Below are positions 24,692 to 30,233 of a stretch of 64,000 bases of DNA, one piece after another (position 1 is the first letter of the stretch; every line of letters starts with the position of its first letter). The position numbers and the translations under genes are program-made. The stretch lies in contig JASAON010001585.1 of the NCBI GenBank assembly GCA_030849065.1, positions 1 to 64,000 on the forward strand. Direction: 5' to 3'. The stretch is from Jaenimonas drosophilae (Eukaryota > Euglenozoa > Kinetoplastea > Trypanosomatida > Trypanosomatidae). Below the pieces are notes generated by a model. It had not been told where the DNA came from, did not search any database, and saw only the letters and a list, made by a program, of their open reading frames with translations.

Positions 24692-24852
24692 AGGGATGAT
24701 CATGTGTGAGAATTGGTACATACCAATCATTGTCGTGGCAGGTCCAACACACACACCACTGCGTACTCCGGTTCTTCCATTCACTTGATGATGCATTCCT
24801 CCCTTCCTCCTTCTTGTATTCTCAGACAGCAAAATTGTTGTTGCTGTGTGCG

Positions 24853-24871
24853 TGTGTTTTTTTTCGCCTAG
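24853..24871 (+). promoter_or_regulatory. Likely spliced-leader acceptor for the RNase III gene
   Basis: A T-rich tract, GTGTTTTTTTTCGCCTAG, ends with AG at 24870-24871, 46 bases ahead of ATG 24918. This supports 24918 rather than the upstream GTG at 24846 as the start. Confidence 0.55.
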
Positions 24872-24917
24872 TTGGAAGGACTTCGTTTCACTTCATCATT
24901 GTACGATTGTCGTCAAG

Positions 24918-27900
24918 ATGTTGTGCTCTCCTCGCAATGAAAGTGTCAAGGAGGCCTTCATCAGGATGAATGGCGGCGCCGCCGTGGCCAATGACTTTCT
25001 TGTGGCCTTCGTGGAGGTGATGATGCGAGAGGCGCACTGCTCCGCGGCGGAGATTCACGCATTTCAGATGGAGGAGCTGAAGTTTCCCGTTGGGCAGCTG
25101 CCGCGGGAGATGGTGAAGGCCGTGAGCGATGCGCTCTTCAAGTGTGCGACGAGTGAGCTCGTGTGGAGGCTTCTCGCCGTGGATGGCATTAGCGGCACAA
25201 GCACAGAGGAAATGACGAATGATATGTCTGTGCTGCGTTCGACGGGTGCCCTACACACAAGCATCGCCTCCCTCTTTGCCTCCACACGTCAGGCCACCAC
25301 AACATGCCTACGCACCGTCCTGGATGCGATGTTGGTCCTCCTCATTCTGCAAGGCAAGATTGCGTGGGCGGTGAAGCTGGTGTTGTTGCTGCTGCGCCAG
25401 GACCAGCTCTGCTTCAGCCGCTTTCGTGGCCTGCTGGTGTTCTTCTACGGCGGCGCAAGGACAAAGGTGCTTTCACGTTGGGAACGGGTGCGTCTTGTGG
25501 TGGAGGCAGTGGAGAAGCACAACTGCCGCATGGAGTTGGTGGTGCAGCGCACGGGAGCGACGGTGCCGATCAATGATTTGCTGCGTGAGGCGGAGCAGCT
25601 CGAGAAGGAGCCTAGCACGACGGAGAAGAAGATGGAGGAATCCTTCTGCCTCCGTGTCTTTGATCCCAAGACGCCAACACAGCCGCACGAAGTGATGTGC
25701 CACGGTCATCGGGGTGTGGTGGCGGCGGTGGCTGATGTGGCGGAGCGCATGAAGTCGGCGGGGAAGGCCACCAAGACCGCCACCAAAGCCCCTTTGGAGC
25801 TCTCCACCCTTGTCCGCCTCGTCTTCAACACACTGCGCATGCGAGAGGTGCCCGAGCGGCTGCGTGAGGCGATGATTGCCAGTGAAGGATGGCTACCTGT
25901 GGTGGAGCTCCGCACGCTCATGGAGGCATCCATCGCACGCATAGGGGCCCCTCTCCCTCCCGAGGTCAGTGGGGTAGCTTCCTTCGTGGAAGACTTGGTG
26001 GCCCACCACGATTGTGTAGCTCGGCTGGAAGTTGGTCGGTGCCCCACAGGCCCCTTTGCCCAACAACGCTGTATGCGGTGCCTCTATGCGCATGAGTGCT
26101 CCCTGGATGATCGACGACGGTTATGGATCAGTGGCATCGCACGCCAATCGGCAGAGGAGCTCCCTGCACGTGGGTGGATCCTTGCGCGGAGGTACTTCCA
26201 CGCACTCAAGTCCGCCACGACCCCCTTCGTGAGCATAACCCGCCTGGGTTTCTTTTCCATCTTCAGCGCAGCGGCCTTGCGTTCCTTTTGGGCGTACAAC
26301 TGTGCCACCGCCACCCCACTCGATGCACATGTGCGTGTGGAGGAGGGCGGAAACCCGTGTGTCTTTATGGAGGTGGACCTCCAGGCCCTCGCTCGTGATG
26401 TGAAGTACATCCGCATCTTTGACGGTCGCACGGAATCTAACACGACCATCGAGAAGTGGTACCTCTTCAGTGGCTACGCCCCCTGCATAGGTGCTAGTGA
26501 CGGAATGCCCGATGTGGTGTACGATGATGATGATGATGATTGGTACCTCAACCTGGCAGTGGACTACCTTCCCAAGGTGTTCCTCACGGGCAGAGTACTC
26601 TCCTTGTCTGGTGTGTGTTCGGAGCAGTTTCTTCTACCAGACGCGCACTTTGATGTTGCCGAGACGCTCGGCGCGGCGCTTCCTGACGTTCCCGCTAACG
26701 GCAGATGCATCAAGATGCCAGTTGGCTACCGCATCAGCAGCGCCTTTCTGCCGGAGAAGTGGAGCCGGCGTGGCGTACATCTCCCAGAGAATAAGTCAGA
26801 ACTGCTGTACTACTTCCCCAGAGAACGTGTGGAGAAGCTCTTTGGCGGTACCACCACCACCCATCTCCCCTCATCCGACGACCAGGCCCCTACACCGTCG
26901 CCGTACGTGGCACCGCAGTCCCAACGCATAGATCTTCCATCCATGCGGGAGAAGGTGCGGGCCTTTGCGGAAAATGAGGCGAGAATCATCATGGATCTCG
27001 AGGTTCCCATCTCCTCCGTGGGCCATCTTGTGCTTAATCGCGCGGCAGATATGTCCGACTTCCGTGCGTGGGTGGAGAGCCTTGGGCTACGTTTGCTGAG
27101 TGAGGAAAAGAATCGGCAGTGCCACATGGAGTCCTTCGTCGTGAAGAAGCTGCACCCATCCCCACAACGTCTGGCGTTGGTGCGCAAGCACTTGAACCTC
27201 TCCGACCGCGTGGATCGCCACACCCTCTCCGCCGCCATGACCCCACAGAGCGTGGATCGCTGCAATAACTACGAGGTGTTGGAGTACATTGGCGATGCCG
27301 TGATGGAGCTGGTGCTGCAGGTGGATAATGCACTCATGTGGCTCCTTCTGGATAAGCGGAAGTCCGCGGCACAGACGTCAATCGTTGCCAACGTGGTGAC
27401 GAAGATTGGCTGCAATCGCGTACTCAGCCGTCTGCTTCCGGAGCTCATTGCTGAGCACCTCGATCATATCCATGGAGGGACCACGGGAGTGAAAACCCGC
27501 GCCGATGTCATGGAGGCGCTCATTGGTGCGGTGTACCACAGCGGATGTGGGCTGGACGGTGTGAGGCACCTTCAGCGGCATCTGTTTGGGCCGCTGGCAC
27601 ACGCAGAGGGGGAGGAGCAAGACGTCGCCGCGGCGTGTCCATATCGATGGGAGGTGGAGGCGGAGCTTGATCAGGTACATGCCTACAACATGGATAGGTT
27701 GGTGGAGGACCGCGATGTGCGTTCCTTCGCGGTGGTGGAGGCAAGCGCGGAGCCATCACGCGTCCATCTTCCGCACGCAGCCTCCTCGCCCTTCCCTCGC
27801 ATTCAGTGGAAGTCGGAGGCCTCCCACTTCACCACGGGAGGTGCGTACAGCTACCGGCGCATCTTTTTGCTCGACGGGCAACGAATGCTGAACCGCATCG

Positions 27901-30233
27901 TGGCCCTGCATCAAGCCCAGCAAATGACCTACTCCAATGAGATACTCACGCCCATTACTCAGCTCGTCTTCGACTTTGATGGGTGCAGCATTCACTCATT
28001 TGCCGTGAAGGACATTGTGTGGAGGTGGTTCCGCCACACTTTCCCAAACTGCGGACCCATGATGATCCTGAATTGCAGCGGAGATCGAAAGAGTGGGGAT
28101 GGCTACAAGTCCTCCTACCACATCCACTTCCCACAAGTGGCCATCAGCATGGAGAGCTACGCCCAGATTCGTCAGAGCTTGGTGTCCTTCATCACCAGCA
28201 CCCTTCGTGGCGCCTATCAACGGTGTGAGGCACTACGTCAGGGGCCTCCACCACAACGCCTCCTAACCTCCCTCTACGTGGAGCGTGAGTTGAAGAAGCT
28301 GAAGGGGTCCTCAGCGCCCATGAAACGCATGTGGTCCTACTGTGGGTATGAGGAGCTGCGTGAGCTGGCCAAGACGTGTCGTGGCGTGCGTCAGAGCGTG
28401 TTGGAGCACATTGCCCATCTTCTCCAGCACGACTTGCAAGGTTTGTGGAGGATCTTTGGCGGTGGCGAGCGCACCACAGCCAACGGTACCCCCACCTCGG
28501 AGGAGAACGTGGTAGTTGATGGAGTGTACGGCATTTTTGATGCTCCACCAGCGCGGGCAGTGGTGCGATGCAGAACAACCGGTCGCACCATCCTGCTTCC
28601 GCTGGAGGAACTGGAGCGTAGCACCTTCCTCCCCGACACCAAGTGGGAGGAGGTGGTGGATGCAGGTCTCTCTGGCAGCATGAAGCTACGCATGTATCTC
28701 TGTGATAAGTACGATATGGTGTATAAGGAAGAACAACGCCCACTGCACTTTGACTCCATGACGTTCGCCCCACATCCGTTGGTGGATAAGCCACTCCGCC
28801 TTGTCTCGGTGGGCAATCGCCAACCTCCTCTAGGCCCGTTTAGATCCGCAGAGGCATGGAAGATGGCGGATGCCATGCGTATCTCGCCTGCAAGCTCGTT
28901 GGATCGCACTTTCTCAGCCTTCGCAGGTGTAACCGACGATGAGCTCATGAAGATGATGGCAAAGGATGTTGGTAAGGTGCAGCCTCTTCACGGCACACCT
29001 CCTACAATGGATTGGCCCCTCATTCGAAGCTGGCATGGCGTACTCTCCATGAGCTCCATGCGCTGCCCACAATACCGCGATGTGGATGGTCGGCTGCATC
29101 ACGCCTGGAATGCCGTGTGTGTGGATGAAGTCGTGGGTGGAGAGAAGGCGTGTGCGGCCAACACCTCACTCGTGGTACGTCCACTTGAGAAGAAGGTGGT
29201 CCATGACCGCCTCGCTGGCATCCACGACGTACTCACACATCGTCCAGCATGGAGAGCCATGCATCCTCCGCCCGCCCGTTCGTGGGATGTGTGGTCCAAC
29301 GCCCTCATGCTGCGTCTGGCGCCAATCAAGCAAGCCACAAAGGCCATGGAAGTTATTCCGAGCCGCGCGCAGCTACCTGTGTGGTGGGAGTACATGGCCT
29401 CGGCGCGGCAGGCGGTACTCTTCATTGCCGGCGATCCAGTCATGGTGGTGCGCGGCTGCTCGAGCCTCACCGAAGGCTTGGCGCCAGTGGCCCAAGGCGG
29501 TCGTGGCGGCATGCAGCGCATGGCACAATACATCATTCCCCACCTCGACTACACCAACACTGAGTGGAACTACCCTTCACTGGGAAACATAATGATGCTG
29601 AGTTTTGGGGTTGAGCAACTTCGTCAGAAGGGTGTGGTGGCACCTCAGCCACCACCTCCCACTTGCAAGCCAAAGACGCAGACCACACCAGCACCCCTCC
29701 TCCCACAGCAGCCAAAGACAGAAGTCTTGAAGGCGAGGCCGCCGGCCATGGCCAACCCATCCCTTGCCACCAATCGTGCACCCAATGCGTGGGTCAAACC
29801 CGTCGAGAGGATGGGCTACACGCACATTGGCATCACCTACACAAATCTTCTTCTCGACAAGGTTGAGCACTGGAGGGAGGAGAACATAGATACGTGGCTG
29901 GAGCATCTGATTGCCCTCCTCAGCATGGATCGCGTGGACCTCTCTCAGGTAATTTTTGTGTGTGCGTCCCGAGCGACGTGTGGAGTCCTCCGCTCAGAGC
30001 CGGCCCTCTGCTACTCAACGGTGGAAGAAGCTGACGGTGTGGCCGCGTGTCGTGAAAACCCCAATTTGGCAGGCTACCGTCGTCGCTTTGCTGCTGTTGT
30101 ACTGCTCTGCGATGGTCCGCAAACGCAGAAGCTTCATGTCCTGGATACTGCACTGGCACTGTGTCGCGAAAAGAAGCCTGCGATGATCTATGTGGGCTCG
30201 GTTCCATCCATGAGGTACTTCCTCGCACCATGA
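24918..30233 (+). CDS. DCL1: Dicer-like RNase III protein with primase-like module
   Basis: A 1771-residue protein from ATG 24918. Residues about 730-890 form an RNase III domain: NNYEVLEYIGDAVMELV at 783-799 and KTRADVMEALIGAVY at 859-873. The four metal ligands fit Glu789, Asp793, Asp863 and Glu866, with spacing as in bacterial RNase III. No helicase, PAZ or dsRNA-binding domain is visible, as known for kinetoplastid Dicer-like proteins. L. braziliensis and T. brucei DCL1 lie at this chromosomal position (from memory). Residues about 1000-1310 carry QLVFDFDG (Asp1019/Asp1021), SSYHIHFP (His1068/His1070) and LHFDSMTF ... PLRLVSVGNRQ (Asp1279), the order of archaeo-eukaryotic primase motifs I-III. 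A Cys cluster lies near 375-392. Likely role: processing dsRNA for RNAi; the primase-like part is inference. Confidence 0.7.
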   Translation: MLCSPRNESVKEAFIRMNGGAAVANDFLVAFVEVMMREAHCSAAEIHAFQMEELKFPVGQLPREMVKAVSDALFKCATSELVWRLLAVDGISGTSTEEMTNDMSVLRSTGALHTSIASLFASTRQATTTCLRTVLDAMLVLLILQGKIAWAVKLVLLLLRQDQLCFSRFRGLLVFFYGGARTKVLSRWERVRLVVEAVEKHNCRMELVVQRTGATVPINDLLREAEQLEKEPSTTEKKMEESFCLRVFDPKTPTQPHEVMCHGHRGVVAAVADVAERMKSAGKATKTATKAPLELSTLVRLVFNTLRMREVPERLREAMIASEGWLPVVELRTLMEASIARIGAPLPPEVSGVASFVEDLVAHHDCVARLEVGRCPTGPFAQQRCMRCLYAHECSLDDRRRLWISGIARQSAEELPARGWILARRYFHALKSATTPFVSITRLGFFSIFSAAALRSFWAYNCATATPLDAHVRVEEGGNPCVFMEVDLQALARDVKYIRIFDGRTESNTTIEKWYLFSGYAPCIGASDGMPDVVYDDDDDDWYLNLAVDYLPKVFLTGRVLSLSGVCSEQFLLPDAHFDVAETLGAALPDVPANGRCIKMPVGYRISSAFLPEKWSRRGVHLPENKSELLYYFPRERVEKLFGGTTTTHLPSSDDQAPTPSPYVAPQSQRIDLPSMREKVRAFAENEARIIMDLEVPISSVGHLVLNRAADMSDFRAWVESLGLRLLSEEKNRQCHMESFVVKKLHPSPQRLALVRKHLNLSDRVDRHTLSAAMTPQSVDRCNNYEVLEYIGDAVMELVLQVDNALMWLLLDKRKSAAQTSIVANVVTKIGCNRVLSRLLPELIAEHLDHIHGGTTGVKTRADVMEALIGAVYHSGCGLDGVRHLQRHLFGPLAHAEGEEQDVAAACPYRWEVEAELDQVHAYNMDRLVEDRDVRSFAVVEASAEPSRVHLPHAASSPFPRIQWKSEASHFTTGGAYSYRRIFLLDGQRMLNRIVALHQAQQMTYSNEILTPITQLVFDFDGCSIHSFAVKDIVWRWFRHTFPNCGPMMILNCSGDRKSGDGYKSSYHIHFPQVAISMESYAQIRQSLVSFITSTLRGAYQRCEALRQGPPPQRLLTSLYVERELKKLKGSSAPMKRMWSYCGYEELRELAKTCRGVRQSVLEHIAHLLQHDLQGLWRIFGGGERTTANGTPTSEENVVVDGVYGIFDAPPARAVVRCRTTGRTILLPLEELERSTFLPDTKWEEVVDAGLSGSMKLRMYLCDKYDMVYKEEQRPLHFDSMTFAPHPLVDKPLRLVSVGNRQPPLGPFRSAEAWKMADAMRISPASSLDRTFSAFAGVTDDELMKMMAKDVGKVQPLHGTPPTMDWPLIRSWHGVLSMSSMRCPQYRDVDGRLHHAWNAVCVDEVVGGEKACAANTSLVVRPLEKKVVHDRLAGIHDVLTHRPAWRAMHPPPARSWDVWSNALMLRLAPIKQATKAMEVIPSRAQLPVWWEYMASARQAVLFIAGDPVMVVRGCSSLTEGLAPVAQGGRGGMQRMAQYIIPHLDYTNTEWNYPSLGNIMMLSFGVEQLRQKGVVAPQPPPPTCKPKTQTTPAPLLPQQPKTEVLKARPPAMANPSLATNRAPNAWVKPVERMGYTHIGITYTNLLLDKVEHWREENIDTWLEHLIALLSMDRVDLSQVIFVCASRATCGVLRSEPALCYSTVEEADGVAACRENPNLAGYRRRFAAVVLLCDGPQTQKLHVLDTALALCREKKPAMIYVGSVPSMRYFLAP

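Follow-up and report, generated by a model that had tools for sequence, protein, structure and literature searches.

A Prim-pol 4 domain with a complete-looking active site in the Dicer-like protein DCL1 of Jaenimonas drosophilae

We analyzed a stretch of 64,000 nucleotides (the window) from the trypanosomatid Jaenimonas drosophilae (contig JASAON010001585.1, positions 1 to 64,000) that carries the gene of a Dicer-like protein, DCL1 (24846..30233, + strand, as are all window features below). Behind its RNase III domain, this protein harbors an archaeo-eukaryotic primase (AEP) domain (residues about 968-1318; 27747..28799), which we consider likely to be the Prim-pol 4 (PPL4) AEP of kinetoplastid DCL1 and to be catalytically live. 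The open reading frame list gives 1795 amino acids from a GTG at 24846, and the relatives of the protein are named Dicer 1 or dicer-like; judging from the sequence around the start, the ATG at 24918 (1771 amino acids) is the likelier initiation codon. Residue numbers here count from the GTG, whereas an earlier sequence-only reading of this DNA counted from the ATG, 24 codons downstream, so that its residue n corresponds to n+24 here.

That reading had proposed an AEP fold behind the RNase III domain, and this was borne out by Pfam and by structure matches. Pfam identified PPL4 ('Prim-pol 4', PF18188) at residues 976-1115 with an E-value of 1.9e-27 and 96.5 bits against a curated cut-off of 25. 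The predicted structure of the region displayed the RRM-like core that the sequence-only reading had set as a check, and primases headed the matches of a structure search with this model. A profile built from relatives matched the region with an E-value of 1.5e-90, while 500 shuffles and 220 other open segments reached no better than 0.3 with the relatives' profiles, whose alignment is anchored on the window row and somewhat favors the window protein. A second family, AEP_C962R (PF23162), to which the N-terminal AEP of African swine fever virus PrimPol C962R belongs, scored 20.6 bits against a cut-off of 23 on the AEP domain alone and was weak in the whole protein.

To define the active site, we used the AEP motifs given in the available part of Kazlauskas et al. 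2018 (PMC5862659), namely hhhDhD/E for motif I, sxH for motif II and hD/E for motif III, and two alignments that both include the window protein, A1 with 17 sequences (P0014 being cut short) and A4 with 26. Both aspartates of motif I, D1043-F-D1045 (LVFDFD; 27972..27980), and the SxH of motif II, S1090-Y-H1092 (28113..28121), were found in 17/17 sequences of A1 and 26/26 of A4. The DFDG and SSYHIHFP segments thus lie where the sequence-only reading had placed them, and because these residues are invariant, their conservation is, on the aligned sequences, far beyond chance.

Motif III had to be reassigned. The aspartate of LHFD (D1303, Asp1279 in the earlier numbering; 28752..28754), which had been proposed for this role, is present in the window protein, but its conservation fails: the A4 column holds D in 21 of 26 sequences, E in two, S in two and T in one, with Glu in T. 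brucei, and in A1 only 12 of the 16 sequences reaching the site have Asp. The alternative that had been offered, Asp1208 (D1232), is Asp in 4/17 sequences of A1 and, in A4, in the window protein alone (1/26). We therefore rejected both in favor of D1272 (Asp1248 in the earlier numbering; 28659..28661), 31 residues upstream of LHFD, which is Asp in all 16 sequences that reach the site in A1 and in 26/26 of A4, and which follows a hydrophobic residue in the alignment blocks inspected (Leu in P0001 and P0017). Next to it lies the basic strand K1280-L-R1282 ... D1287-K1288 (28683..28709), whose four residues are likewise invariant (16/16 and 26/26); the earlier reading had sought such a strand after LHFD and missed this one. 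Its proposed conservation check in orthologues, none of which could be assigned by name to L. braziliensis, accordingly held for Asp1019, Asp1021 and His1068 in its numbering, T. brucei included, and failed for Asp1279. The spacing in A4 is 44-65 residues between motifs I and II and 170-341 between II and III, the latter range being wide because inserts vary. The PPL4 match stops at residue 1115 with the model exhausted (10-158 of 159), well before D1272, so an annotation by Pfam alone would miss the complete-looking active site.

As an in-genome yardstick, we used a PrimPol-like protein encoded on contig C301, whose motif III region was assigned by eye as IIDLGVYSRNRSMRCAGCSKLG. When this block was scored against 312 kDCL-domain windows, the best fits started at residues 1254-1270, all containing D1272, and the top-ranked window without D1272 came eleventh. 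The PrimPol-like gene itself harbors a UL52-type zinc domain, with motifs DVE, SQH and IID, also assigned by eye.

The window protein belongs to a known family, of which it is a diverged orthologue. In three protein searches, 26 relatives (P0001-P0026) were retrieved, including entries from T. brucei, T. congolense, T. grayi, Leptomonas, Crithidia, Leishmania and Angomonas, all of which have PPL4 in their precomputed Pfam annotation; P0011 bears the name 'Prim-pol 4' and P0021 the name 'putative La HTH in kinetoplastid DICER domain/KptA in kinetoplastid DICER domain/Prim-pol 4'. In our own Pfam search of the A4 rows at E 0.01, PPL4 was found in 26/26 and AEP_C962R in 10; leaving aside the window row, which holds the AEP piece only, La_HTH_kDCL and RNase III were each found in 24/25 and KptA_kDCL in 22/25. 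The DCL1 proteins of T. brucei (P0010) and Leptomonas (P0004) share with the window protein the order La_HTH_kDCL, KptA_kDCL, RNase III, PPL4 and conserved C-terminus, and their active-site residues are identical to its own, at just 21-26% identity over the full alignment A1. The defining architecture of kinetoplastid DCL1, kDCL N-terminal regions with RNase III and then PPL4, is thus found in the window protein. The most diverged relative found, P0017 (1667 amino acids), has PPL4 only at 3.5e-8 yet keeps the positions of motifs I, II and III. In the genome assembly (18.8 Mb, 370 contigs), the single PPL4 match is located in the DCL1 gene, and the window gene was the sole match of T. brucei DCL1 among the candidates scored.

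The sequence-only reading had held that no described Dicer or RNase III protein carries a primase fold. Pfam, the names of proteins in databases and the published work cited here contradict this and point to a primase fold in kinetoplastid Dicer that is already on record, the link of PPL4 to Dicer resting on Pfam and protein names. A primase in Dicer is not treated in the available parts of PMC12975129, PMC5512222 and PMC6333775, and no experimental study of such a domain was among the literature matches listed (in one case the best 25 of 98). The initial observation was correct and sharp, and wrong in its motif III and its claim of novelty.

Upstream of the AEP, the RNase III domain (residues 793-902; 27222..27551) was matched by two Pfam families, slightly under their cut-offs in the protein scan and above cut-off in a six-frame search, and by the relatives' profile (E 3.4e-30). 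Its acidic residues E813, D817, D887 and E890, of a type with a catalytic role, were found in 17/17 sequences and are common to canonical Dicer. By contrast, canonical Dicer has a helicase, a PAZ domain and two RNase III domains, and neither a helicase nor a PAZ family was found in the window protein (Pfam, E 1, as for the family absences that follow); a second RNase III stretch was not detected either, although a diverged copy could escape. The D5 helicase family of African swine fever virus PrimPol C962R and D5-type primases is absent, as is the UL52-type zinc domain family of human PrimPol and herpes UL52-type primases (Herpes_UL52, PF03121), of which a much diverged finger could escape; at E 0.01, Herpes_UL52 matches the genome once, on C301.

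Further toward the N-terminus, a La_HTH_kDCL-like region (residues 343-399; 25872..26042) was matched by Pfam under cut-off (E 0.0018) and, over residues 320-425, by the relatives' profile (E 1.1e-13). It is followed by a diverged KptA_kDCL-like region (residues about 425-612; 26118..26681; profile E 5.7e-14), which falls below Pfam detection in the protein scan, whereas the T. brucei region reaches an E-value of 5e-52. R331, R393, R411 and H416 are invariant (one row has no letter at R331) and, on sequence grounds, might be part of the Tpt1 Arg-His-Arg-Arg set. The HGT motif of Tpt1, as given in the available part of PMC6333775, was not apparent by eye in the KptA-like region, for which RNA-end binding without catalysis is a possibility. 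A separate KptA/Tpt1 match on contig C370 (E 5.3e-54) indicates that the Dicer-borne copy is not the only one in the cell. At the other end, residues 1440-1690 (29163..29915; profile E 4.6e-28) form a region that is conserved across DCL1s and matches no Pfam family.

The six-frame search gave two more RNase III matches in the genome. On C236 (C236:45676-45939), a 728-amino-acid frame encodes a second RNase III protein with a single RNase III domain, in which PPL4 was not found at E 0.1; this protein is a candidate DCL2. On C355 (C355:83590-83916), a 227-amino-acid RNase III-like protein, whose RNase III signature is apparently altered (by eye), lies downstream of a frame resembling a ubiquitin hydrolase. 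An Argonaute (Piwi) match and the PrimPol-like gene lie about 23 kb apart on C301 (C301:9696-10271 and C301:33415-33561).

From AEP chemistry, D1043, D1045 and D1272 would act as metal ion ligands, while H1092 and the K1280/R1282/K1288 strand would hold the incoming nucleotide. The domain is thus quite probably a live nucleotidyltransferase in our analysis, and the presence of two intact-looking catalytic centers in a single polypeptide speaks for two chemistries, of which that of the RNase III step alone is familiar. We infer RNA as the substrate: the AEP would most likely add nucleotides to an RNA end or prime on RNA. It would synthesize short templated segments or fill in the ends of double-stranded RNA (dsRNA) or of damaged RNA, with the KptA/La-like region binding RNA termini and the RNase III of a DCL1 dimer doing the cutting. 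We propose this combination of end synthesis and dicing in one enzyme tentatively. It is doubtful that DCL1 goes further and acts as polymerase and Dicer at once, the AEP making or priming a second RNA strand on target transcripts and passing the duplex to its own RNase III.

Alternatively, the AEP may belong to an RNA repair device rather than to RNA interference (RNAi) proper, with KptA-like end healing, gap filling by the AEP and trimming of damaged RNA by RNase III, a reading that overlaps with end synthesis and dicing in that both need a live AEP. RNA-repair roles for such proteins, mainly kinetoplastid, were predicted by Burroughs and Aravind according to the available part of Kazlauskas 2018 (PMC5862659), and KptA- and La-type regions do lie upstream of the AEP. 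However, no ligase family was found in DCL1, and the genome has a stand-alone KptA/Tpt1 match at another locus. Moreover, the available parts of PMC2965760 and PMC3916237 describe DCL1 as missing from RNAi-negative Leishmania and from Phytomonas, respectively, where AGO1 and DCL2 are absent too, a co-loss that ties DCL1 to RNAi. In the insect trypanosomatid Crithidia fasciculata, by contrast, PMC2965760 reports siRNA production and the presence of all three proteins, AGO1, DCL1 and DCL2, which are retained as well as lost together. On balance, we regard a pure repair role as unlikely, though it retains some weight.

Somewhat poorer is the case for an AEP fold without catalysis, serving as an RNA-binding platform in place of PAZ and helicase in dsRNA measurement. 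AEP cores bind nucleic acid, and DCL1 lacks the PAZ and helicase families; yet the metal ligands, the His and the basic residues show no variation (26/26), even in the most diverged P0017, whereas a dead platform should have lost some, which makes this reading rather improbable. A chance resemblance of motifs with no primase fold, which could draw on the failure of sequence searches to find an AEP in the PDB and on a null profile comparison with the whole C301 PrimPol-like protein, is hardly credible, as PPL4, the primase-led structure matches and residue invariance speak strongly against it.

In summary, the PPL4 family was already known in kinetoplastid relatives. With motif III corrected, the complete set of catalytic-type residues shows exactly which ones to mutate and raises a testable question, namely whether a primase fold synthesizes RNA within an RNAi enzyme. 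RNAi in T. brucei is reported not to spread along transcripts, which bears on whether the domain replaces an RNA-dependent RNA polymerase. If second-strand synthesis by DCL1 were true, trypanosomatids would use a primase fold where other RNAi systems have an RNA-dependent RNA polymerase.
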